Shown in pieces: positions 16,020 through 59,425 of a stretch of 64,000 nucleotides of DNA (the stretch's first letter is position 1; every line of letters starts with the position of its first letter). Under the pieces are notes generated by a model. It saw only the letters and a list, made by a program, of their open reading frames with translations, was not told the origin of the DNA and did not search any database. This DNA comes from Tidjanibacter sp. (lineage in GTDB: Bacteria; Bacteroidota; Bacteroidia; Bacteroidales; Rikenellaceae). Made by a program: the position numbers and the translations under genes. The DNA is taken from the NCBI GenBank assembly GCA_017396085.1, contig JAFQNC010000014.1, forward strand, positions 1 through 64,000, given 5' to 3'.

Positions 16020-17204
16020 ATGAAACTTAACAGGATTTTTGTCATCACGCTCCTCGTGTGTGCAGGTTGTGTCAATGAGGATTTTAAGGGTCCGGATCGT
16101 GTGGGTGTAGATTTGCTAATCGAAGCCGAAATCGGTGCGGAACAGACTTCAGACAAAACAGGTTGGGTCTCTGGCGATATGATTGGTGTGTCAATAGCAG
16201 GATTGGATGGTTATGCCACGAGTACCAATGTGCCGTACTGTTATAATGAAACCGAAAACAACTTTGTTGCAGCCGATAAACAAATCTATCTGAAAGGAGC
16301 CCGACAAGATTTTACCGCCTACTACCCCTATGTTAAGAGTGATAACACTCATCCTGTGGGGGTAAGTGTCTATGCCGGTGAGGAGAGGCAGACAGAGTCG
16401 GAGTGGGGAAAACTTGACTATCTCTACGCGACAGCATCGGCTACCCGCAACGAACCGTCAGCCAAATTTACTTTCAACCATGTGATGGGGCAACTTTTGC
16501 TCCATTTTGACGTTGAGGGTGGTTTTAGCGGAGAGTTGAGTTATACGATTTCGGGGCTTAAAGTTGATGGTGAGTTTGATACTGCAAATGGTATTATTGA
16601 GCCCATTATGGGTGCCAAGACCGCCCAAATGTCGCTATCGACATCGGCTGCCGATGATGTTTTGATGGTTATCCCGCAGACGGCAAATCTGAAACTTGAA
16701 TTGTTGTACAACAACAAAATATATAGTGGTCTAATCGAGGCAGCTACATTCACTGCTGCAACATCTACTCGCTACAACATTACAGTCAATAGCAGCACAG
16801 AGGAGACCCCTTCATTGATTATTACGAGCCAAGGTATTGGCGATTGGGTAACCGGTTCGGGAGGTACGGTGGAGAGCACCCCCGAAGAGGGAGGAGAGAC
16901 CCCCGACGACCCGAAGCCCGACGACCCGAAGCCCGAAAATCCCGAAGTTGAGATTCCCGATGGCGGTGACAGCGGATGGAAAGAGGGTGAGGGCGGCTCG
17001 GTAGAGAGTGAGCCCGAAGACCCCGAAGAACCCCAAAACCCCGAAGTGGAGTTTCCCGAGGGCGATAACAGCGGATGGGAAGAGGGTGAGGGCGGCTCGG
17101 TAGAGAGTGAGCCCGAGGTAACGCCCGAATTGGAAAACAACGGCAGTTCGAGCGACTGGCAACCTGGACAGGGTGGCACTATCGAGAGCGAAGAGGAAGC
17201 ATAA
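16020..17204 (+). CDS. Fimbrillin-like (Mfa-like) lipoprotein with repeated C-terminal motif
   Basis: Lipoprotein (signal ending VCAGC, Cys near residue 16) whose first 270 residues have the Mfa1-like fimbrillin layout: W.SGD.IGVS, then a Y-A-Y-Y-P-type block (DFTAYYPY) and FNHVMGQLLLHF. Such proteins are either pilus subunits or, in polysaccharide loci, surface glycan binders. The tail is odd: the usual single C-terminal W..G motif is repeated four times (W276, W320, W353, W380), each as W-x2-G-x-GG-(S/T)(V/I)ES, joined by acidic proline-rich linkers. First gene of the long operon. Surface exposure is inferred from the lipobox and acidic tail; function is not proven. Confidence 0.75.
   Translation: MKLNRIFVITLLVCAGCVNEDFKGPDRVGVDLLIEAEIGAEQTSDKTGWVSGDMIGVSIAGLDGYATSTNVPYCYNETENNFVAADKQIYLKGARQDFTAYYPYVKSDNTHPVGVSVYAGEERQTESEWGKLDYLYATASATRNEPSAKFTFNHVMGQLLLHFDVEGGFSGELSYTISGLKVDGEFDTANGIIEPIMGAKTAQMSLSTSAADDVLMVIPQTANLKLELLYNNKIYSGLIEAATFTAATSTRYNITVNSSTEETPSLIITSQGIGDWVTGSGGTVESTPEEGGETPDDPKPDDPKPENPEVEIPDGGDSGWKEGEGGSVESEPEDPEEPQNPEVEFPEGDNSGWEEGEGGSVESEPEVTPELENNGSSSDWQPGQGGTIESEEEA
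16836..17193 (+). repeat. Tandem coding repeat in the fimbrillin-like gene
   Basis: Four copies of a W..G.GG.(V/I)ES block spaced 44, 33 and 27 residues apart. Copies 2 and 3 are almost identical at DNA level (AGCGGATGG then AGAGGGTGAGGGCGGCTC) with matching linkers rich in CCCGA, so this part has duplicated recently. Confidence 0.75.
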
Positions 17205-17290: not shown

Positions 17291-18934
17291 ATGAAAGCCT
17301 ATCAACTTTTTCTGACTGCATTTGCACTCGTTGCAACGCTCTTTGTATCCTGCTCGCAGGAGGAGCCGGTAGCACCTGTCGGTGCAGAGATGCCCATCCA
17401 GATTACCATTTCGGATGCCGGCATCCTCTCGACCCGTGCCCTGACCGACTCCGAATACAAAACCCACTTCGAGACCGGTGATGCCGTAGGTCTCTACGCC
17501 GTAAAGGAGGGGGCAGTTGTAAACAACATCGCCAATGTACGTTTGAGTTATGCTGACGGCATGTGGACCCCCGCCGAGCCGATTCTCTACACGACCGAAT
17601 TGGAGGGTGTTACCTATTGGGCATACTACCCCTATGCTGCCGAGTCGGAATTTGATGCTGCTGCCGAAAATCCCTTTGCCGGTAAGATTGCCGCTTGGAC
17701 TATCGGCTCGGATCTCTCGACACAGGAACTCTATGCCGCTTCGGATCTAATGACCGGTTCGGCTGTGGCAACCCTCGATAATGGTCGCTACACTATGGAC
17801 TTGAAACTCCACCACCGAATGGGTATGCTGGTTGTCGAGCTCCCCTCGACCAAGTACACTTTCACCAATACCGAGCCCGCCTTGGAGCCATACATGGTGG
17901 CTGCTGCAAACCCAGCCTTTACGGTAGTTGCGGGCGAGAGCGAGCAGAGCATCGTTCCCTACTACGATGCCACCACAGCAGGCTATCGCATCCTGCTGAA
18001 ACCCGAGACGACCTGCTCGATGAAGGGTCGCTTTGAGGTGGCTGGCAAGGGTCAGAAGTACACCATTGAATTTGCCAATGGTGTTGCTGCCGGCACTTAC
18101 GAGCTCTTCACGGTTGATGGCGGAGTCAAGGAGCAGAGCCTCGAATTGAAGGTAGGTGACTACTTCTGCGCCGATGGTACGATTGTATCCTACCAAGTCG
18201 GAGCAACCGCTCCGAGCAATGCCGTAGGTGTTGTTTGCCAGCTGGGTACGACCGAGGGCATTCAGGCTGCACTGCCCCACTGCTCACACGCCGTGGTATA
18301 TGCCCTGAAACGTACCGAGCGTGCTACGACCGAGGGCGTAAACGACAAGACCGACTATAAGGATGACGCCTATCTCTCGATTTGGTCTACCGAGGCTCCT
18401 ACAAGCGCCATTGACCTCTGGGCTGCCGACTATGGACTGATTGGCGAAGATAACAAGTACAACTCGTCGGACGACACGAAGGTGGCTAACGGCTACGAGA
18501 TGACCACGGCTTGGCTCTCGCTCCCGCTGATTACCGACAAAGTAACGACGAAGGTGACCGACGAAGAGACGGGTGAGGTAACGGAGGTTGAGAGCGAAGT
18601 TCAGAAAGATGTGTTGCAAATTATGCGCGCCACGTTGGCCGGAGCCGTAGCAGTTCCCTCGAACACCACCGGCTGGTGGATTCCTTCGATTTACGAGTGC
18701 CAGCTGCTGCAAGAGCAGTCCGAGGTGCTGAACGCATCGCTCGAAGGTGTGGGCGAGGTGCTGTGGAGTGACTACAACAGCGAGGTAAACGCTGCCGACG
18801 ACAAGTTTGCCGGCTACTGGACTTCGACCCTGCGTCGTCGCGACGCTATGATTGGCTATATGCCCGAGGGGGATGCCAAGGTAGCCTATCTGACCAACCG
18901 CAAGGGTTACTACCGCTTTGCCCTTGCATTCTAA
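17291..18934 (+). CDS. Fimbrillin-like lipoprotein with lectin-like C-terminal domain
   Basis: Lipoprotein signal (ending LFVSC, Cys at about residue 21) followed by a fimbrillin-like region (about 30-300: ETGDAVGLYAV, VTYWAYYPYA, LHHRMGMLVV). The last 90 residues (GWWIPSIYECQLLQ ... GYWTST ... YYRFALAF) resemble the C-type-lectin-like modules found in Bacteroidota surface proteins. Codon use is unlike the genes on both sides: third positions are mostly C or G, as in the GC-rich locus beyond 49 kb. The gene is 86 bases after the previous fimbrillin-like gene and just 10 bases before the acetylesterase, so it is co-transcribed. A surface glycan-binding role is likely but unproven. Confidence 0.75.
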   Translation: MKAYQLFLTAFALVATLFVSCSQEEPVAPVGAEMPIQITISDAGILSTRALTDSEYKTHFETGDAVGLYAVKEGAVVNNIANVRLSYADGMWTPAEPILYTTELEGVTYWAYYPYAAESEFDAAAENPFAGKIAAWTIGSDLSTQELYAASDLMTGSAVATLDNGRYTMDLKLHHRMGMLVVELPSTKYTFTNTEPALEPYMVAAANPAFTVVAGESEQSIVPYYDATTAGYRILLKPETTCSMKGRFEVAGKGQKYTIEFANGVAAGTYELFTVDGGVKEQSLELKVGDYFCADGTIVSYQVGATAPSNAVGVVCQLGTTEGIQAALPHCSHAVVYALKRTERATTEGVNDKTDYKDDAYLSIWSTEAPTSAIDLWAADYGLIGEDNKYNSSDDTKVANGYEMTTAWLSLPLITDKVTTKVTDEETGEVTEVESEVQKDVLQIMRATLAGAVAVPSNTTGWWIPSIYECQLLQEQSEVLNASLEGVGEVLWSDYNSEVNAADDKFAGYWTSTLRRRDAMIGYMPEGDAKVAYLTNRKGYYRFALAF

Positions 18935-32649: not shown

Positions 32650-34053
32650 TTACTCCTTTTCCCAATTTACACCTTCATTGTTGCTATTCGCTTCCGAAGT
32701 ATTGGTCTGACCGCTACGCATGTACACCGTCATAGTTCCACCACTTTGCTTGCCGGCGCGAACATTGACTTCATCACCCAACATACGAATATCCAATTCC
32801 GTCATATCATTGGAGTAGCAGTAAAGCTGGTCTACATTTGTATTCTTTGAGAGGTTCAGCGTAACAAGGTTGTTTCCATTCACAATAAGTTTTTGCAAAT
32901 TCGTCATATTCGAAATATCGAATGTGCTATCATTGCAAGAGGCAGACCAACCAACGATCTCCAACTTGGTCAAATTAGCGAAGTACTCTACACCTTGGAA
33001 TGTAACAATAGCCGCATCTTCCATACCTTCAGCGCTCTTCTTTACAGACATAGTTGTAGTGTATGACTCTGCAATTACCACCTCACCGGTCTCCTCGTCG
33101 GTTTCCGACACAAAATTATTGTCTTTCAGCCAAGTACGGAAGGTAGCATCGGGGACAATCTTCTTCGCCGCCGCCGCCCTAACATCAATTTGGGGCAGGG
33201 TATAAATCGTATTTTCTGCCAAGTCAGACATAACAGTCGAAGTCGACTTGGCAACCTGACCGGCATTTGTGTAAATCTCTACATCCAAACCTTCGGTAAA
33301 GGGGGTAAGGTTTTTCGAGGGAACAACCACATAGAAATCCTTGGCTGTTTCACCGAGTGCTACGCCACCACAATTGAGGGTGATCGACGTAGAGGAGTCT
33401 CCATCCCATTTGTTTACAACCTTTTCAGCTGTATTATTGGGATAAACAACCACCTTACCGGCAATCTGCTCACCAGCTTTGTCCGTCACAACAATCTTAT
33501 TTACCAAAACATCACCCGTCAGACTGAATTTCAGCACCGAGAAATAGTTTTTGAATTGCATATTACCAATCGTGATGCTCTCGCCATCAACAACCGTTGA
33601 TGCTTCTGGTGCTTTGCCGACCAAAGGAATCTGGGTATAACCATCCTCCACATAGGTCTGATTGGCAGGGAGCATAACTCGAGCTGCACTTCCGGTTCTT
33701 GTTTGTGCAGGCAGATAGAGAGCCGTAATTTCCTCTTTGGGATCAGCCAATTCGGCGATGGTTGCCTCATATACAACCGTGCGACCGTTGTTTGCAAGCG
33801 TTCCCTCCTGCTGGGTAAACTCAACATGCTTATTTGCATCGTTCACATAAACATATACCACATCACCGGCATCCCAATGGGTTCCCACACCGGCAGCATA
33901 ACCGGCACGGGTATCCTCCGAAGGAAGAGCATCAGCGGTAAAGGTAATAGTTTTAGTCCCGGGAGCGGGGGCGAACTGCTCATCGTTCTGTGCGCAAGCC
34001 ACAACGGCAAATGCCATAACGGCAGCCGAAAGATATTTCACAACTTTATTCAT
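32650..34053 (-). CDS. Fimbrillin-like lipoprotein with leucine-rich C-terminus
   Basis: 467 residues: lipoprotein signal (ending VVAC, Cys20), then an Mfa/fimbrillin-like region (about 30-320: TRAGYAAGVGTHWDAGDVVYVY, FKNYFSVLKFSLTG, Asp-rich strands), then a short leucine-rich segment (about 355-440: FANLTKLEIVGWS, NMTNLQKLIVNGNNL, LNLSKNTNVDQLYCYSN, MTELDI). The two together suggest surface display and protein or glycan binding. It is 35 bases after the stop of a 45-codon peptide gene and forms a two-gene unit with it. Substrate or partner unknown. The unit lies between the two plus-strand RG-I operons but need not belong to them. Confidence 0.7.
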   Translation of the reverse strand: MNKVVKYLSAAVMAFAVVACAQNDEQFAPAPGTKTITFTADALPSEDTRAGYAAGVGTHWDAGDVVYVYVNDANKHVEFTQQEGTLANNGRTVVYEATIAELADPKEEITALYLPAQTRTGSAARVMLPANQTYVEDGYTQIPLVGKAPEASTVVDGESITIGNMQFKNYFSVLKFSLTGDVLVNKIVVTDKAGEQIAGKVVVYPNNTAEKVVNKWDGDSSTSITLNCGGVALGETAKDFYVVVPSKNLTPFTEGLDVEIYTNAGQVAKSTSTVMSDLAENTIYTLPQIDVRAAAAKKIVPDATFRTWLKDNNFVSETDEETGEVVIAESYTTTMSVKKSAEGMEDAAIVTFQGVEYFANLTKLEIVGWSASCNDSTFDISNMTNLQKLIVNGNNLVTLNLSKNTNVDQLYCYSNDMTELDIRMLGDEVNVRAGKQSGGTMTVYMRSGQTNTSEANSNNEGVNWEKE

Positions 34054-34088: not shown

Positions 34089-34226
34089 CTACTGCCACTC
34101 AAACTCTGCGTAATCCGTACTCACATTGGGATCAACAATATCACCACCGCTTATAGCGAAGCCTGCCTCAACCCTTACATTCTGCAATTCAAGTGCAGGA
34201 GCCACATAGATTGTTTCCTTTTTCAT
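34089..34226 (-). CDS. 45-residue peptide of a family found before fimbrillin-like genes
   Basis: Starts at the ATG at 34226 (MKKETIYVAPAL) and ends in acidic, aromatic EFEWQ. It shares a core (YxAPAxE, then V, then EAGxAxSG) with the 50-residue peptide at 50503-50655, and both genes lie directly before a fimbrillin-like lipoprotein gene. There is no signal peptide or membrane segment. The AxSGG-like centre and acidic tail recall precursor peptides with a leader and core, but no maturation enzyme is seen nearby. It could also be a regulatory or chaperone-like peptide. A full promoter lies 90 bases upstream, so it is the first gene of its transcript. Confidence 0.7.
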   Translation of the reverse strand: MKKETIYVAPALELQNVRVEAGFAISGGDIVDPNVSTDYAEFEWQ

Positions 34227-34315: not shown

Positions 34316-34345
34316 CAAAGGTAGAAGAAATCTCTGCCACACAAA
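34316..34345 (-). promoter_or_regulatory. Full Bacteroidales promoter of the peptide/lipoprotein unit
   Basis: On the minus strand TTTG (34345-34342) and TACCTTTG (34323-34316) are 18 bases apart, close to the -33/-7 consensus. The predicted start gives a leader of about 80 bases before the peptide ATG, which is long for this window. Confidence 0.7.
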
Positions 34346-39968: not shown

Positions 39969-40040
39969 TTTGTGATTGACTTCGCTCCACAATGCTACCG
40001 CATTGCGCCGCTCGTCTTTCACTGCGTCGGCTCGGCAATA
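39969..40040. repeat. Left copy of a 72-bp intergenic repeat
   Basis: Identical to 48036-48107 at 68 of 72 positions. On the minus strand it folds: CGCAATGC pairs with GCATTGTG around GGTA (about 39993-40012). Two of the four differences fall in that stem and both keep pairing as wobbles. All four would change the amino acid in the only open frame, so a protein is unlikely. Part of the gene-free stretch 39879-40268. Confidence 0.8.
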
Positions 40041-40082
40041 GCCGAACAAGGAGTATTACCTTCGGTAACCCACCTCAAAAAC

Positions 40083-40131
40083 CGAGAGAGGATACATTGC
40101 AAATAAACTTGCAGTATCCTCTCTCGTTTTT
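40083..40131. terminator. Bidirectional terminator with TTGCAAATAAACTTGCA apex
   Basis: CGAGAGAGGATAC pairs with GTATCCTCTCTCG, topped by TTGCAAATAAACTTGCA. T5 follows on the plus strand and A5 precedes it, so it can end the GH106 operon and stop transcription from the island. The same apex tops the hairpin at 48151-48187 on a different outer stem. Confidence 0.85.
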
Positions 40132-40268
40132 GCGAGCTCTTCGAGCATCTCCTTGTAGACCATTGCTCTCGCACTCTTTGTGCTCCCGTTGGAGGGAGTG
40201 ACTTTTGCAGTGTTACGCAAACACACAAATCGTTGTGGCTACTGTATCACCACGCACTCACACGACAC

Positions 40269-48035: not shown

Positions 48036-48107
48036 TTTGTGATTGACTTCGCTCCACAATGCTGCCACATTGCACCGCTCGTCTTTCACTGTGTCGGCTC
48101 GGCAATA
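48036..48107. repeat. Right copy of the 72-bp intergenic repeat
   Basis: Matches 39969-40040 with four differences. On the minus strand the stem becomes TGCAATGT with GCATTGTG around GGCA, still fully paired with wobbles. Homology to the left side resumes at the terminator apex and again up to the 3' end of tRNA-Arg (about 48226-48258 against 40161-40193). Confidence 0.8.
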
Positions 48108-48150
48108 AGAGTGCAAATGTTTACCGCTTTGTGCGGCATACAAAAAAATA

Positions 48151-48195
48151 AACAAGGAGATTGCAAATAAACTTGCATCTCCTTGTTCTATTTTT
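48151..48195. terminator. Terminator after tRNA-Arg with TTGCAAATAAACTTGCA apex
   Basis: AACAAGGAGA pairs with TCTCCTTGTT below the same TTGCAAATAAACTTGCA apex as at 40083. A-rich before (A7) and T-rich after (CTATTTTT), so it works on both strands, ending the tRNA transcript on the minus strand and the GIY-YIG gene on the plus strand. Confidence 0.85.
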
Positions 48196-48243
48196 GTGCT
48201 CTGCGAGCAAAACATTTGCTTCCTATTGCTCTCGCACTTCTTG

Positions 48244-48317
48244 TGATTCCGTTGGGGCTCGAACCCAAGACCTACAGCTTAGAAGGCTGTTGCTCTATCC
48301 AACTGAGCTACGGAACC
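48244..48317 (-). tRNA. tRNA-Arg (anticodon TCT)
   Basis: Acceptor GGTTCCG with CGGAATC, D stem GCTC/GAGC, anticodon stem ACAGC/GCTGT with loop CTTCTAA (anticodon TCT), variable AGGTC, T stem TTGGG/CCCAA with TTCGAGC, discriminator A. CCA is not encoded. It reads AGA codons. Its 3' end faces the mobile island. Confidence 0.96.
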
Positions 48318-48911: not shown

Positions 48912-50444
48912 TTACTCGGTAGCCTGCCAAGTGAGTTTGATGTTGTCGATACGAGGTGCATTCGTAGTTGTATCGTTCTTTGTAAAGCGAATGTCAATGG
49001 TCTCAGGAGTGCCAGTAACAGTGAAATCTTTGCTATATGTTTGGCAATCTGCTGCATTAGGATTCTTGGTCTCTAAGATGTTGACCCAAGTTTCTCCGCC
49101 ATCAATACTATACTCAACTTTGACTGCTGAGTTCTTGTAGGCCTGCAGGAACGAAAGAGTGAGCGCAGTATGCTCGTAGAGTTTGATTCCTTTGATGGTG
49201 AAGTAGCCTTCCGTACCATACGTATTATTTGTTCTTAACCAAAGGTAAGTGTCGGTCATACCTTGCACTGAGGAAGCCACATAGCGTGAGATACTTGCAT
49301 TATTGTTGCAGTCATAAGAAATGGCAGCCACATCGCCATTGTATACACTTAGACCAGCCTTGTCATAATTCTTAATTGAGCCACTGGAGAAATTGGTGCT
49401 TCCTGTTGTACCTGTGAATGCTTCGCTATCGAATTGTTCGTAGTAGAGGTGGTCGGCGTACTCAATCTCGTAGTCATATGAGAGGTTTGCGGTGTTGTAG
49501 GTACCTGCCTTGAACTCGATAGCCTCAGCGGCGGTTTTGGTGAAGGTCTGCTCGCCGGTGGAGGTCTCAATCTTGATGGTGAAGGTCTCACCTACGCCAA
49601 GGGTGAAGGGGGCGGTAATCATATAGAAATCGGCACTCTCGCCAACAGCCAACTCATCATCGTTATCGGCCTTGCCGCTCTCGTCATCTTTGTCCTTAAT
49701 GTTCAGCGCACGAGTGTTGAAATCTGCGGCGGTGTTGTTAGCCTTTGCGAGGTCGATGGCGGGCTCATCGGCGGTGAGGTCAATCCAGTAGGCACCGAAG
49801 ATGTTGGTGTTGCCCGTAACGGTCAATTTCTTGATAGCGGTGGGCGCGTTGGAGTTGTTGGTAACGGTGAATTTGTGCAACACTGCAAGGTGTTTGAGGG
49901 CTACTGAGGGGGTGCGAGTGCCCTCTGCCTTGCCAACCATAATGTCCATATCGGCAATGTGGTCGGAGTTGTTGTAGCCATATTGATTGGTTGCACCGAT
50001 GGCGAAGTAACCCCCCTCTTGGCCTTTTTCTGTACGATTAGGCGCAGTCAAAGTAGCATCGCCGCTATTGGTTGTAGAGTGGGGGCTGCAAACATACCAG
50101 TTGTAGTTTGCGCCTTCATCCAGAGCGACTTCTGTGGCAGGGGTGAACTTGCCGGTCAGCTCCTCGTCAATGATAAACTGGGTATTCTCGGAGTAGCCCT
50201 CCTCGCCCACTTTCTGATAGAACACCGAAAGGTCATCTTCTGCCCTCCACTCCACAGAGTAGTCTGCGTTGAGGGTGGTGCGAGATTCGGGGAGGGTGGC
50301 GTAGAGCACCACCTCGGCGGGCTCCTCCACGATGGGCTCATCGGGGGTTACGGGGGTGTTGCCCTCATCAATAATGTCGTTTTGGCAACCCACAGCAGCG
50401 AGTGCCAACAGGGTGGCACCCAAAATCATAAAACTCTTTTTCAT
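48912..50444 (-). CDS. Fimbrillin-like lipoprotein with C-terminal carbohydrate-binding-like domain
   Basis: 510 residues from the ATG at 50444 (a GTG three codons earlier was rejected). Lipoprotein signal ends LAAVGC. Residues about 30-330 are fimbrillin-like (TLNADYSVEWRAEDDLSVFY, YNWYVCSPHS, LKHLAVLHKFTV). The last 170 residues are a beta-sandwich (LYYEQFDSEAFTG, YLWLRTNN, GYFTIKGIKLYEHTALTLSF, VKVEYSIDGGETW, RIDNIKLTW) homologous to the C-terminus of the lipoprotein at 54983-56320. The shared domain suggests binding to the same glycan. It follows a 50-codon peptide gene by 58 bases and is the last gene of the second locus. Confidence 0.75.
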   Translation of the reverse strand: MKKSFMILGATLLALAAVGCQNDIIDEGNTPVTPDEPIVEEPAEVVLYATLPESRTTLNADYSVEWRAEDDLSVFYQKVGEEGYSENTQFIIDEELTGKFTPATEVALDEGANYNWYVCSPHSTTNSGDATLTAPNRTEKGQEGGYFAIGATNQYGYNNSDHIADMDIMVGKAEGTRTPSVALKHLAVLHKFTVTNNSNAPTAIKKLTVTGNTNIFGAYWIDLTADEPAIDLAKANNTAADFNTRALNIKDKDDESGKADNDDELAVGESADFYMITAPFTLGVGETFTIKIETSTGEQTFTKTAAEAIEFKAGTYNTANLSYDYEIEYADHLYYEQFDSEAFTGTTGSTNFSSGSIKNYDKAGLSVYNGDVAAISYDCNNNASISRYVASSVQGMTDTYLWLRTNNTYGTEGYFTIKGIKLYEHTALTLSFLQAYKNSAVKVEYSIDGGETWVNILETKNPNAADCQTYSKDFTVTGTPETIDIRFTKNDTTTNAPRIDNIKLTWQATE

Positions 50445-50502: not shown

Positions 50503-50655
50503 TTAAAACCAATCGGTGTTGCCTTCTTTCCACGCTTCGGGAGTAACACCATCGGGGTTGATGATAATCTCCTCTGTTCCACTCACGGCGATGCCTGCTT
50601 CAAGCACCACCTTCTCCTGCTCAATGGCAGGTGCATTGTACGTTTTCTTTGTCAT
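50503..50655 (-). CDS. 50-residue peptide, second member of the family before fimbrillin-like genes
   Basis: Begins MTKKTYNAPAIEQ and ends EGNTDWF. It shares the core YxAPAxE, V, EAGxAxSG with the 45-residue peptide at 34089-34226: 12 of 21 core positions are identical, while the tails differ but both are acidic with a C-terminal Trp. It lies 33 bases after the GH3 stop and 58 bases before the fimbrillin-like ATG. No signal peptide or membrane helix. Recurrence of the gene pair in two unrelated places argues that it is translated and works with the lipoprotein or its assembly. Function unknown. Confidence 0.72.
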   Translation of the reverse strand: MTKKTYNAPAIEQEKVVLEAGIAVSGTEEIIINPDGVTPEAWKEGNTDWF

Positions 50656-52954: not shown

Positions 52955-54964
52955 TTACTGTTCCTTGACGAGCAACACTGCATCGGCCCTCATTGTGGCA
53001 TCGGCAGTGGTGTTGGAGATGGTTACAGCCACAGGCTCACCCTCGGTGAACTCCCAAGTGCCGAGGTGGGCCCAATCGCCCGAGGTCTGCCCCAACACGT
53101 TGAGGTCATCACGCTGGAAGGTTACGTGGTAGGCCTTCTCGCCTGCCACAATGTCGAAGGTGGTGCTGGAGGTGAGCCTTTTGTTCGCGCTCTGGTAACT
53201 GTACACAGCCCACTTGCCCGAGGAGGGGATGCTCCCCACGGAGAACTTCACGCTTTGGGGCTTGGTGGTGGTGGCGAGTTCGTAGAACGAGAGGCCATAA
53301 CCACCCCTGCCTTTGGCAACCCAAAGGTCGTCTGCCTCCACGCCGGCATCGCTGTCGTCAATCAGAATGTCGGGCTCGGAGCCATCCATATAGGGGTCCT
53401 CTTGCAGGATGAGGTTAATCTCCCTGCTGTCCACCTGCTGCACATCGCAACCGCCCTGCTCAATGGCCAACGATACCGCCACGGCAGCCGACTGACCGAG
53501 CACCATAAACACGGGCTCCATACGTATCGAGCCATAGGCAATGTGGCTTGCCGACAAGCACACGGGCACCAGCAGGTTTGTACACTGCTCCCTCTTGGGG
53601 GTGATGGAACGGTAGGAGATGGGGTAGGGCAGACCGCCACCAATCTCCACGTTGCCCTCGTTCTTGACCATCGCCTTGCCATCTTTCTCCACAACAATGC
53701 GCTGGCAGTTGTGGGAGTCCATCTGGTAGGCAGCCATACCAACGCCATCGTAGGCAACGGTGCGGCCCTCGCAGTCGGCCTGAGTGGCCACATACTCACC
53801 CACCATCCTGCGGCACTCCCTCACGTAGAGTTGGGGTGTCCAGTGGCCGTGGGCAACATACTCATCCTTCGGGTAACCCCACAACTGCATCCTCTGACGC
53901 AGCAGTTCGGGCACACGCTCATCGTGGCCGATGAAGTAGAGGAGGCCCTTGGTGTACTCGGTGTGGGCGTCAATGATAGCCTTGCGCTCCTCGTAGGAAG
54001 CCTCAGGGTAATTGTGGTTCATACCAATCATATCGCTCGAAAAACCACCCCTGTTGTTCACATCGGTCTTGCCATTGGGCATACGGCTCCAGATGAAGTA
54101 GTCGTTCAGGGAGAGTTTTTCGGGCTGCACCTCCATCAGTCGGAGCAACAACTCGTAGCGGGTGGAGTCGTAGCCCTCGGGGCGAGTGATGGGAATACGA
54201 TTGTCGGGGTTGTCGGTCAGACAGATGCGGTAGTTGTAGGCCTGCACCATATTGTCGGCCGTACCATTCTCGGCCACCTTTGCGGGCGAAATACCCCAGA
54301 GGAGTCCGCTCTCGGGGTTGCCCTTTTCTTTGTAGGGGTCAATGCCATCGGGGAACTGGTGGCGGGTCAAAAGTTGCACACCGTTGTAGGTTTCGCCATA
54401 CTGCTCGTTGGCCTCACGACCCACGGTGTACTCCACGCCGGCGCGGGCCATAAGGTCGCCCTCATAGGAGCAGTCGATGAAATAGTTGGCCTTGATGGTG
54501 CGGGTTTTGGAGGGCTTGGCGGAGTTCTCCACCACGATGCTCACGATGCGCTCACCCTCCTTTTGGCTCTCACGGATGCGATAACCGTCTACGAGGCGGA
54601 TGTTGGGGTGGTCGATGTAGTCCCTCATTATGGCCTCTGCCACCGAGGGCTCAAAAATCCACTGCTCCAAGCGGCCATAGTGTGCGCCAACCTTGCGGTA
54701 GAACTGCTTGGCCACGCCGGAGATAACCTGCTTGTTGCCGATGTCGGTGAAGCCAAGGCCACCTGTGGTTAGACCACCAATGTGGCTTGTGGGCTCCACG
54801 AGGACCACGTCAAGTCCCCTTTGTGCAGCCGAGTAGGCTGCCACCACACCTGCCGATGTACCGCCATAGATGCACACATCATAGGTGCCGACCTTGTTGC
54901 AACCGCCCAGTGTGAGGGCGGCCGCAACGGTCACTATTGCTTTGATGAATTTAGTCGTTTTCAT
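52955..54964 (-). CDS. FAD-dependent oxidoreductase, lipoprotein, with C-terminal beta domain
   Basis: 669 residues: lipoprotein signal (ending LTLGGC), then a FAD_oxidored (PF12831-type) domain with the dinucleotide motif YGGTSAGVVAA, HIGGLTTGGLGFTDIG, DCSYEGDLMARAG and the C-terminal block NLLVPVCLSASHIAYGSIRMEP with GQSAA. After about residue 525 comes a beta-sandwich of the golvesin/xanthan-lyase type (about 530-667). The substrate of such secreted flavoproteins is mostly unknown; oxidation of a sugar is a fair guess in this locus. It shares the core with the gene at 57779-59425 but lacks an insertion of about 40 residues near position 105. Confidence 0.85.
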   Translation of the reverse strand: MKTTKFIKAIVTVAAALTLGGCNKVGTYDVCIYGGTSAGVVAAYSAAQRGLDVVLVEPTSHIGGLTTGGLGFTDIGNKQVISGVAKQFYRKVGAHYGRLEQWIFEPSVAEAIMRDYIDHPNIRLVDGYRIRESQKEGERIVSIVVENSAKPSKTRTIKANYFIDCSYEGDLMARAGVEYTVGREANEQYGETYNGVQLLTRHQFPDGIDPYKEKGNPESGLLWGISPAKVAENGTADNMVQAYNYRICLTDNPDNRIPITRPEGYDSTRYELLLRLMEVQPEKLSLNDYFIWSRMPNGKTDVNNRGGFSSDMIGMNHNYPEASYEERKAIIDAHTEYTKGLLYFIGHDERVPELLRQRMQLWGYPKDEYVAHGHWTPQLYVRECRRMVGEYVATQADCEGRTVAYDGVGMAAYQMDSHNCQRIVVEKDGKAMVKNEGNVEIGGGLPYPISYRSITPKREQCTNLLVPVCLSASHIAYGSIRMEPVFMVLGQSAAVAVSLAIEQGGCDVQQVDSREINLILQEDPYMDGSEPDILIDDSDAGVEADDLWVAKGRGGYGLSFYELATTTKPQSVKFSVGSIPSSGKWAVYSYQSANKRLTSSTTFDIVAGEKAYHVTFQRDDLNVLGQTSGDWAHLGTWEFTEGEPVAVTISNTTADATMRADAVLLVKEQ

Positions 54965-54982: not shown

Positions 54983-56320
54983 CTACAAAATCTCGGTGAG
55001 CTTGAGGTTGTCCAGACGGACGTGGTTGGAGCCACCATTCTCGGTGAACTTCAGCGAGATGGTCTCTGCGCTTGAGTCTGCGGGAAGGGTGAAGGTTTGC
55101 TCATAGAGTTCAAAACCACCGGTGGAGGCACATATCTGGGTCCAAGTTGTGCCGCCATCGAGCGAGTATTCCACCTTTATTTTCTGTGCAGCCTGCGAGT
55201 AGGAGAGTTTGAGCGTGGTTGCACCGTGCAACTTGATGCCGTCAACGCGGAACCAACCATTCGAATTTTTCTTTATCCAAAGGTAGGCGCCATCCATATT
55301 TGCAATGGCAGGAACTTTATATTTGGACAAACAACTGTTCACTCCATCGCTGGTGTAAACCAGAGCCTTTACATCGTTGTCGTATACCTTGCAGCCGGCC
55401 ATTGCACCCTCGTTGGGCACCTTCTCGCTTTCGGGATTTGTAGGGTCGGTAGCAATCTCGAAGGAGTTGTACTTCACGATGTTGCTTGCCATAAATTGTG
55501 CAGCATCGGTGGTAACATTTCCAACCTCGGTGTCGTGTGCGGTGGTGTGAGAAATCTCCATTGTGGTGTTGAAAGTCTCGCTCCACAACTCCTTACCAAC
55601 CTTGGGAGCACCCTTAATCTTAACCTCGTAGGTTGCCTCGGTGGTGTTGCCCTTCACATCGGTTGCCACAAAACGGAACGAGAGGGTGTTGTTCACATCC
55701 TCCTCTGCGGGTGTATATTGGAAGGGATACTTGTAGGTCTTGTCGGTTGCACCGAAGTCGGCTTTGGCGAAGAACTCGCTCTCGCCTTTGTAGGCTTTGA
55801 AGTTGCTCAGTGCGTAGCCACACTCAACGAGCACCTCAAAGTTGAGGCTCTTGTCGTTTGTAATCTCGCCGGGGGCACTTGCAGGAATGGTTATGGCAAA
55901 CTCAACTGCGCTGGCACTCACCCACACAGCATAGTCCACGCTCTGGACCTTGCCATCGGCACCTGTGGCGGTGAACACAAAGTTGAGCGTTTGGCCAAAT
56001 TGAGAGTCCTTGATGGTGTACTTGAAGTTGTAGCCAACCTCTGTGGGACAATCCTCAAAGTTCTTCTCGGAGCCCTCAATTACCTCGCCGTCAAGCGAAG
56101 TGGCCACACTGGCAATACCCTTGGAGTAGGCCACAGTGAAGTCGTAGGCCACATCCTCATTGGGAGATACGGCGTAGGGCTCTAACGTGTTGAGTGTGAA
56201 CAAAATATGCTCACTGGGGGGGGTAATTTCACCACCATCTATGTTTCCTTCAGGCGTGCAACCTGCCGAGAAACAGAGTGCCACCAAGGCGGCAATGGAG
56301 AATAGTTTTACTCGTTTCAT
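54983..56320 (-). CDS. Surface glycan-binding-type lipoprotein with Ig-like and C-terminal binding domains
   Basis: 445 residues with lipoprotein signal (ending FSAGC). Two Ig-like repeats (about 35-135 and 140-235) lead to a C-terminal beta-sandwich (about 240-445: ELWSETFNTT, AYLWIKKNSNGWFRVDGIKL, IKVEYSLDGGTTW, VRLDNLKLTE) homologous to that of the fimbrillin-like protein at 48912. Placement behind susC/susD fits the SGBP (SusE/F-like) role of holding glycan at the surface. No catalytic residues are seen. Confidence 0.75.
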   Translation of the reverse strand: MKRVKLFSIAALVALCFSAGCTPEGNIDGGEITPPSEHILFTLNTLEPYAVSPNEDVAYDFTVAYSKGIASVATSLDGEVIEGSEKNFEDCPTEVGYNFKYTIKDSQFGQTLNFVFTATGADGKVQSVDYAVWVSASAVEFAITIPASAPGEITNDKSLNFEVLVECGYALSNFKAYKGESEFFAKADFGATDKTYKYPFQYTPAEEDVNNTLSFRFVATDVKGNTTEATYEVKIKGAPKVGKELWSETFNTTMEISHTTAHDTEVGNVTTDAAQFMASNIVKYNSFEIATDPTNPESEKVPNEGAMAGCKVYDNDVKALVYTSDGVNSCLSKYKVPAIANMDGAYLWIKKNSNGWFRVDGIKLHGATTLKLSYSQAAQKIKVEYSLDGGTTWTQICASTGGFELYEQTFTLPADSSAETISLKFTENGGSNHVRLDNLKLTEIL

Positions 56321-57778: not shown

Positions 57779-59425
57779 CTATCGTGCCACCTTTTGTGTG
57801 TGCTGCACCTTCTTTGATGAGGGGGTAAGCAGTTGCCCCAACTCTTCGAGCTTGGCCCTAAGGGTGGGGTAGTCCACATCCTGCACGGCACACTTCGAGT
57901 CGATGGCCTGTACGGCAGCCACGGCGGCCGACTGACCGAGAATCATATAGGTGGGCTCCATACGGATGGTGGTGTAGGCCACGTGGGAGGCCGAGAGGCA
58001 CACGGGCACCAACAGGTTGCCACACTCGCCCCTCTTGGGAGTTAGCGAGTAGTAGTCAATGGCGTAGGGCTTGGTGTTGGTGAAGATACCACCCTCCACA
58101 ATCACACCGCCATCGCCGGCAACATACGACACATAGTGGCAGTCCATCATATAGGTACCAATGCCCACCGAGTGCTCCACGGGGATGCGGTCGGTGCGCT
58201 GCACGTTGTGCTGGGTCATAACCTTCTCGCCCACCATTCGGCGTGCCTCACGCACATAAATCTGGTAGGGGAAGCCACCGTTTTCCACAAACTCATCTTT
58301 GGGCCAGCCCCAACGCAACATCTCCTTGCGGATGTGTTCGGGCACACGCTCATCGTGGCCGAGGCACCAAAGCATACCGACAGCATAGTTTTTGTGCTCC
58401 TGCTCCATACGCTCCCTTGTGGCGTAGTCGCCCTCGGCATAGCCGGTGCTTGCACCGAAGAAGTCGAGGTGGTTGGTGTCGGTCTTGCGGTTGGGCATAG
58501 GGGTAAAGGTGATGATGTTTTTGAGTTCCAAGTCGGGCTCCATAGCAAAGCGGCGGATAACAATCTCATAGAGTGCGGGATTGTAGTCGGCGGGCTTTTC
58601 GATGGGAATCATATTCTCTGCATCATCGGTGAGTGTTACACGATAGCAGTAGGCCTGTGTGCGGTGGTCGGCACTGCCCAGTGGGCCATACATCTCGGGA
58701 GCCACATAGGGGATGAGTTCGCCGCTCTCGCCATTGAGGTAGGGCGAGGTGGGGATGAAGTGGAATTTGCGAATACCGGCCATATCCTCGCCATAGTGCT
58801 CGGTGCTCTCCCTGCCGATGATGTGCGACACACCTGCTGCGGCCATCAGGTCGCCCTCGTAGGAGCAGTCCAAGAACATTTTGGCCTTCACGGTGGTGCC
58901 GTCAAGAAGCTGCATCTTGCGGATTTTGCCCTTGCGCACGGTTGCGCCCTTGTTGAGGTCGAGGGGGGCATTGTAGAGCACCTCCACGCCTGCCTCAGCG
59001 AGCATATCCTTCATTATGCGCTCGGCCACACCCGACTCATAGACCCACTGAATCTGTCGGGCATCGTTTTTGCCGGAGAAGGTGCGCTTCTTGCTCGACT
59101 CCATAAACTCCTCACGGGTTTGGTTACGCCACACCTCAGGCTGGATGTAGTAGTCCCAAATGCGGCCATAGAACTCGGCTGCAAGGCCACCCACTTGGTC
59201 CTGACGGTTGATGTCGGTGGCGGTGAGTCCGGAGGTGGCCATACCACCCACGTGGGTATTTTTGGACACAAGGAGAGTCTTTTTGCCCAAGCGTGCCGAC
59301 TGAATGGCAGCCATCACTCCGGCTGCGCTCTCGCCATAGACACACACTTCGGTGGTGATGGTGGCACCCTGCACCGACAGTGCGGCGCAGAGTGCAAGAA
59401 TCATTATCGACAATCTCTTCTTCAT
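57779..59425 (-). CDS. FAD-dependent oxidoreductase, secreted
   Basis: 548 residues with type I signal peptide (MKKRLSIMILALCAALSVQG). FAD_oxidored (PF12831-type) domain: YGESAAGVMAAIQSARLG at the FAD site, HVGGMATSGLTATDIN, DCSYEGDLMAAAGVSHIIGRES and NLLVPVCLSASHVAYTTIRMEP with GQSAA. It is the paralogue of the protein at 52955-54964, without the C-terminal beta domain and with an additional stretch (about 105-145) before VYESGVAERIM. Lies between the SusD gene and the clan-A hydrolase gene. Having two such enzymes in one locus implies an oxidative step on the glycan. Confidence 0.87.
   Translation of the reverse strand: MKKRLSIMILALCAALSVQGATITTEVCVYGESAAGVMAAIQSARLGKKTLLVSKNTHVGGMATSGLTATDINRQDQVGGLAAEFYGRIWDYYIQPEVWRNQTREEFMESSKKRTFSGKNDARQIQWVYESGVAERIMKDMLAEAGVEVLYNAPLDLNKGATVRKGKIRKMQLLDGTTVKAKMFLDCSYEGDLMAAAGVSHIIGRESTEHYGEDMAGIRKFHFIPTSPYLNGESGELIPYVAPEMYGPLGSADHRTQAYCYRVTLTDDAENMIPIEKPADYNPALYEIVIRRFAMEPDLELKNIITFTPMPNRKTDTNHLDFFGASTGYAEGDYATRERMEQEHKNYAVGMLWCLGHDERVPEHIRKEMLRWGWPKDEFVENGGFPYQIYVREARRMVGEKVMTQHNVQRTDRIPVEHSVGIGTYMMDCHYVSYVAGDGGVIVEGGIFTNTKPYAIDYYSLTPKRGECGNLLVPVCLSASHVAYTTIRMEPTYMILGQSAAVAAVQAIDSKCAVQDVDYPTLRAKLEELGQLLTPSSKKVQHTQKVAR

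Follow-up and report, generated by a model that had tools for sequence, protein, structure and literature searches.

Small peptides encoded ahead of surface lipoprotein genes in Tidjanibacter are probably scattered precursors of an LPP-like RiPP system

In a 64,000-nucleotide stretch of Tidjanibacter sp. DNA (hereafter, the window), two short open reading frames belong to a family of small peptides whose genes are paired with lipoprotein genes. At the level of sequence, we observed that these peptides are under selection and that they co-occur with, and in some genomes are physically linked to, a cassette of putative processing genes. The most probable explanation, in which we have considerable confidence, is that the family comprises RiPP precursors resembling those of linear polyphosphorylated peptides (LPPs), encoded at scattered sites, and that their tails are processed in trans, exported and active together with the cognate surface lipoprotein.

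Both open reading frames exist as a preliminary description of this DNA had them, with lengths of 45 and 50 residues and both on the minus strand (Table 1). The residues that it reported as shared at equal spacing are found as such in both sequences, both tails are acidic and contain Trp, and neither peptide has a signal peptide. It had also placed each peptide gene first in a pair with a fimbrillin-like lipoprotein gene. A same-strand lipoprotein gene does follow each of them, but copy 2 is not the first gene of its unit, since a glycoside-hydrolase-like gene lies 33 bp ahead of it. Tails of the copy 2 type, WxEGNT.W, are also found beside orthologous lipoproteins at five other loci (L054, L057, L059, L061 and L068). 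The C-terminal part of the copy 1 partner is LRR-like, with weak LRR matches, and the C-terminal domain of the copy 2 partner is common to the lipoprotein encoded at 54983-56320 (minus strand). The C-terminal ~145 residues of the latter match the copy 2 partner with 38% identity, and there is no peptide-profile match ahead of its gene.

Table 1. Positions of the two peptide genes, their parts and their partner genes in the window
Feature	Position	Strand	Sequence	Remarks
Promoter-like element ahead of copy 1	34316..34345	-	TTTG-N18-TACCTTTG	Bacteroidetes-type, 97 nt upstream of copy 1 start; consensus match only
Copy 1 peptide gene, 45 aa	34089..34226	-	MKKETIYVAPALELQNVRVEAGFAISGGDIVDPNVSTDYAEFEWQ	ORF, ATG at 34226; profile match E=2.7e-19
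Copy 1 conserved leader core, Y7 to S26	34149..34208	-	YVAPALELQNVRVEAGFAIS	Family core YxxPx[ILV]E...E.G[IF]A.[ST], 102 ungapped members
Copy 1 variable acidic tail	34092..34148	-	GGDIVDPNVSTDYAEFEWQ	Putative exported part; net charge -5
Copy 1 partner, 467-aa lipoprotein	32650..34053	-		Lipobox VVAC; gap 35 bp after peptide gene; fimbrillin-like N-domain, A5 profile E=3.2e-43 (the protein is itself a row of A5)
Copy 2 peptide gene, 50 aa	50503..50655	-	MTKKTYNAPAIEQEKVVLEAGIAVSGTEEIIINPDGVTPEAWKEGNTDWF	ORF; profile match E=2.8e-19
Copy 2 conserved leader core, Y6 to S25	50581..50640	-	YNAPAIEQEKVVLEAGIAVS	
Copy 2 variable acidic tail	50506..50580	-	GTEEIIINPDGVTPEAWKEGNTDWF	Net charge -5
Copy 2 partner, 510-aa lipoprotein	48912..50444	-		Gap 58 bp after peptide gene; fimbrillin-like N-domain, A5 profile E=2.1e-53 (the protein is itself a row of A5)

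Two other repeated features of the window were seen. An interspersed repeat of ~226 nt is present at 39969-40192 and 48036-48255 (74% identity), the second copy ending at a tRNA-Arg gene (48243-48317), and two related oxidoreductase-like genes on the minus strand (52955-54964 and 57779-59425) share stretches of 74-75% DNA identity with other genes between them.

The two peptides are members of a much larger family. A profile built from eight own-genome peptide copies, with no lipoprotein sequence in it, identifies 11 copies in the own genome at E<1e-3. Among the 23 genomes of the genus, which are MAGs under the label Tidjanibacter (Rikenellaceae), 22 have between 3 and 12 copies, and a peptide-only profile finds well over 100 in relatives. 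Ten related loci, found with a close subset of the family, carry Tidjanibacter or Rikenellaceae labels, and most of them are from ruminant guts. The conserved N-terminal part and variable tail noticed in the two window copies are seen family-wide. In 102 ungapped members the core reads Y-x-x-P-x-[IVL]-E-x-x-E-V-x-V-E-x-G-[IF]-A-x-[ST], in which Y, P, E and G do not vary and the final residue is S in 90 members and T in 12. Y and P are present in 102/102 and I, V or L at P+2 in 93/102, so the YxxPx[V/L/I] criterion of LPP leaders is met. The tails are 9-27 residues long with a mean charge of -4.9, and 103 of 110 members have an aromatic residue among the last six tail positions. Scans of the peptides against Pfam and NCBIfam returned no match, neither database having a model for them, and a search of the peptide profile against the PDB found no lasso leader and only chance matches. 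A double-glycine leader was considered and rejected, as conservation does not extend to the G that follows the conserved S.

The pairing of peptide and lipoprotein genes is strong. Among the copies with flanking sequence, 110 of 114 directly precede a same-strand lipoprotein gene (103 identified by script and 7 by eye, the latter owing to an LTNC lipobox, a frameshift or a contig end), with a gap of -1 to 76 bp (median 25 bp). Among other genes the base rate of lipoproteins is only ~21-23%, and the peptide profile contains no lipoprotein sequence, so we regard the pairing as real. The four copies that lack a downstream lipoprotein are L113 and three peptides of G054. The preliminary description had named, as a result that would refute it, a random placement of homologues relative to fimbrillin-like genes; we observed the opposite. 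In some other families the peptide gene instead comes immediately after the 3' end of a lipoprotein gene or another large gene (L267 in G054, L312/L318 in G367, L317/L319 in G251, L175 and L184), so the order of the partners differs between lineages.

Most partner lipoproteins have a fimbrillin-like N-domain. The profile of this domain (A5) matches PDB entries 4k4k, 3ufi and 4eps (2.8e-8 to 1e-4), which we take to be fimbrillin-like structures. The Pfam family Mfa_like_1 is matched by 7 of 63 partner lipoproteins. Unlike fimbrillin-like proteins of this type, many partners carry extra C-terminal modules, and these are diverse (BspA LRR, BACON, pectate-lyase-like, PCMD and others). A fimbrillin-like partner is thus usual in the family and is present for both window copies, but it is not universal. 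In one orthologous set (L159 in G000:C9, L050 and L053) the peptide precedes a different lipoprotein, judged by eye to be heparinase-like. The converse association holds only in part. Of the top fimbrillin-like matches in the genome, about ten have a peptide and several others do not, the profile for this count having been trained on peptide-associated proteins. In the window itself, the adjacent plus-strand fimbrillin-like lipoprotein genes at 16020-17204 and 17291-18934 have no YxxP peptide. The product of the former terminates in acidic repeats of 33 residues (99-bp tandem repeat at 16915-17116) that contain Trp and are reminiscent of the peptide tails. The possibility that 16020-17204 encodes a long precursor was rejected; it encodes a lipoprotein without YxxP. 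We found no paper on small proteins near fimbrillins in the literature searched.

Across 26 orthologous pairs, which are not independent, dN/dS is 0.28 for the leader and 0.24 for the tail. An earlier estimate was biased because pairs had been chosen by peptide identity; therefore, the pairs were re-chosen by similarity of the lipoproteins. Purifying selection of this strength (dN/dS ~0.25) indicates that the peptide itself is functional. Tail similarity tracks lipoprotein similarity when corrected for the leader (partial r=0.61, permutation p=0.001) and also within genomes (partial r 0.56). The tail goes with its own lipoprotein, and co-inheritance alone could explain this co-variation. A TAnnTTTG box is found at 2.3 per kb upstream of the peptide genes compared to 0.12 per kb between the peptide and lipoprotein starts.

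The putative processing machinery is a cassette encoding a PqqD-type RiPP recognition element (RRE), a SipW-like S24 peptidase, an MsbA-like ABC exporter and an HprK-like kinase, a composition taken from ten own-genus loci with flanks, as resolved by simple gene calls. The own-genome copy of this cassette is on a separate contig (G000:C36). PqqD (PF05402) is present as one copy in 21 of 23 genus genomes, and the cassette RRE is seldom seen elsewhere in the phylum. It is a discrete protein of 89 residues (PF05402, 1.3e-13), and the only PDB match of its profile is TfuB1, the RRE of a lasso-peptide system. The peptidase matches Peptidase_S24 (PF00717) over the cut-off at 7.6e-6 and TIGR02228 below its cut-off at 3.9e-8, and it keeps the Ser (GxSM.P) and His (HR[IV]) motifs in 17 loci. 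The exporter is recognized as an ABC exporter (1.6e-28; PF00005 and PF00664) with MsbA as its best NCBIfam match (1.2e-77, below its cut-off), and the domain scan detected no C39 domain in it. The kinase assignment is less firm, resting on weak HMM matches and a signature. This P-loop protein of ~300 residues has the invariant signature GESGTGKST...NDD...PWSGK and matches HprK_rel_A (TIGR04352) only weakly (4e-4, below its cut-off), and its profile matches only P-loop proteins and PEPCK in the PDB. Five cassettes of other families also include an NTP transferase (PF14907, NTP_transf_5; 2.5e-43 to 3.9e-33), which was not seen in the own-genus cassettes, where only the cassette loci and not whole genomes were considered. 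At L261 (G259) and L293 (G397), from sequence reading, the cassette adjoins glycosyltransferase and polysaccharide-export-like genes.

The distribution of the peptide follows that of the cassette. In the own genus, 21 genomes have both peptide and PqqD, and G003 has neither. Across 13 other Rikenellaceae genera, the peptide-positive set and the PqqD-positive set are the same (3/3 vs 0/10, p=0.0035). In a survey of 392 genomes of the order, where cassette-positive means a cassette-type PqqD at E<=1e-14, the peptide is present in 14 of 31 cassette-positive genomes compared to 1 of 361 others (p=2e-16). About 17 cassette-positive genomes lack a match to the peptide profile used (A2). A broader, out-of-sample profile identifies further peptides in 7 of 17 cassette-positive and in 1 of 20 cassette-negative genomes (p=0.011), and in several cases (G315, G088 and G397) the additional peptides again precede lipoproteins. 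Two peptide-positive genomes have no PqqD match, namely G009, which is 59% complete, and G184. Genomes were counted as independent in these tests, an assumption that does not hold in full. The occurrence in many families speaks against inheritance from one event. In ten genomes (G001, G024, G035, G054, G221, G239, G259, G335, G397 and G251) a peptide lies within ~20 kb of PqqD (1.3-19.7 kb). The precursors are scattered in the own genome and adjoin the cassette in some relatives (L233, L267 and L294). With the own-genome cassette on another contig, the case for a connection there depends on co-occurrence and the motif.

The preliminary description had offered a leader/core precursor peptide as one of two readings. 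This reading is now strongly supported, since RREs are known to bind leaders at YxxPx[ILV], the motif found here at the N-terminus, and since peptide presence follows the cassette. The steps from RRE binding through phosphorylation, cleavage and export to tail function are inferred without biochemistry, and those up to export are taken from precedent. The N-terminal ~25 residues would be the leader, whose Y-x-x-P-x-[ILV] motif would dock onto the discrete PqqD-type RRE. The HprK-like kinase would probably phosphorylate the sole invariant hydroxyl residue, the Ser/Thr located 16 residues after the Pro. The SipW-like S24 peptidase may take the leader off at either of two sites, after V-E-x (before G-[IF]-A), which fits the LPP position of Glu, or after A-x-S, which fits the -3/-1 rule of signal peptidases. 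Export of the acidic tail, with its aromatic end, from the cytoplasm would fall to the MsbA-like ABC exporter. A single cassette is predicted to serve several scattered precursors, each co-transcribed with the surface lipoprotein that follows, and the tail would most likely act with that lipoprotein as a ligand, cap or decoration of the adhesin. It is very likely, by inference, that the own genome has the genes that cut, modify and export the tails. Binding or modification of the neighbouring lipoprotein by the exported tail is the least certain step.

The closest known counterpart is the LPP system, described for the lpp cluster of Paenibacillus alginolyticus, a member of the Bacillota (Popov et al., Nat Commun 2026, PMC13381572). 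There, a SipW-type peptidase cleaves after FET in an RRE-dependent manner, an HprK-like kinase phosphorylates Ser3 of the core, and the product is linear (PMC13381572). The Bacteroidales system shares with it a discrete RRE next to a SipW/archaeal-type signal peptidase, an HprK-like kinase, an MsbA-like transporter and, in other Bacteroidales families but not in the own-genus cassettes, an NTP transferase. Both also lack a lasso leader peptidase and have precursors with a YxxPx[V/I/L] leader, a Glu conserved close to the cleavage site, a little further on a conserved Ser, and a variable C-terminus, and some cassettes of both lie beside glycosyltransferase or capsule-type genes (for the Bacteroidales, the two loci read above). 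However, the full LPP leader consensus, YxxPxVLxHQxIxFETxxS, is not met, HQxIxFET being absent from the Bacteroidales peptides. The conserved E is at P+10 rather than +11, the S/T is at P+16 rather than +15, and an invariant G-[IF]-A-x-[ST] and short tails set these peptides apart. The host is different, one cassette would serve about 3-12 scattered precursors whose genes lie outside the cluster in the own genome, and most of these genes have a surface lipoprotein gene as partner. We regard the system as a probable Bacteroidales variant of an LPP-type RiPP system with scattered, lipoprotein-paired precursors, one that by inference works like an LPP system. It is not filed as a full member because the full leader consensus and a clustered precursor are not met and phosphorylation is untested. 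Among Bacteroidales peptides, the bacteroidetocins and other GG-leader/C39-type systems (PMC10352776) share leader-dependent export of small peptides, but the present family has no double-Gly motif and the domain scan showed no C39 domain in its exporter. The survey of Bacteroidales RiPPs in PMC10352776 does not mention S24 or YxxP. We found no report of a Bacteroidales LPP-like system, subscription papers and preprints being mostly outside our search.

Several other explanations were weighed. One is that the peptide is a small factor that works in the cytoplasm, assisting the assembly of the lipoprotein whose translation follows or acting as its chaperone, with the cassette there for some other reason. 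The close, co-transcribed pairing with surface lipoproteins, the lack of a signal peptide and the co-variation of tail and lipoprotein would all fit such a factor, which was the other suggestion of the preliminary description. However, it is the leader and not the tail that is common to all copies, and this leader carries the RRE-binding motif; the distribution of the peptide matches that of the PqqD cassette, and the two are physically linked in ten genomes; and some relatives (G054) have peptide and cassette without a downstream lipoprotein. The assembly factor is now the weaker rival, and we consider it improbable. An upstream open reading frame that controls translation or attenuation of the lipoprotein gene, with no role for the peptide after its synthesis, would account for a short reading frame, a short gap before the main gene, and promoter-like boxes that lie upstream of the peptide gene and are almost absent between the two genes. 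It would not account for purifying selection on both leader and tail, by which a purely translational leader is disfavoured, or for residues that are invariant across families, and it has no need of the processing cassette with which the peptide correlates. We consider it very improbable.

Two further readings accept that the peptides are RiPP precursors. The tails could be secreted signals or antimicrobials, with the lipoprotein acting as a receptor, immunity protein or carrier rather than as a structural partner. This is a variant of our preferred explanation that differs in the role of the tail, and its weight is contained within that of the latter. It draws support from machinery shared with RiPP bacteriocins and LPPs, and from the many diverse tails per genome, each of which tracks its lipoprotein. 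Set against this, a genome can have as many as about a dozen different tails, each belonging with a large lipoprotein of adhesin type (LRR, BACON and other modules), which looks more like surface biology than antibiosis; we regard this variant as unlikely without dismissing it. The other reading is that of true lasso-peptide precursors. The phosphorylated lasso system encoded by the bsf cluster of Bradymonas has the same leader motif, kinase and NTP transferase (PMC10368454). Similarities to such phosphorylated lasso peptides (bsf and paeninodin type) include the YxxPxL-type leader, the ABC exporter, the HprK-like kinase, a discrete PqqD-type RRE that is closest to lasso RREs and, in cassettes of other families, the NTP transferase. 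Nevertheless, the leader peptidase B2 (PF13471) is found in 0 of the 21 genus genomes searched, on which ground the lasso assignment was rejected. No cyclase (Asn synthetase-like) was recognized by eye beside the cassette, an S24 peptidase takes the place of B2, the precursors are scattered, and the tails have no conserved start and ring acceptor. We give this possibility almost no weight.

The preferred reading, that of LPP-like precursors with lipoprotein-directed tails, now provides a probable pathway for a family of small ORFs found repeatedly in several families of gut Bacteroidales, for which neither Pfam nor NCBIfam offers a model. LPPs are of unknown role and were said in 2026 to be restricted to Bacillota (PMC13381572), and a Bacteroidales counterpart tied to a surface adhesin offers a direct route to function. 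It remains possible, though we propose it only tentatively, that a Bacteroidales LPP-type pathway gives many surface lipoproteins each their own secreted, probably phosphorylated, acidic peptide, such that peptide/adhesin pairs across the genome share one modification and export machine. If this is true, LPPs would gain their first concrete biological role, at the cell surface.
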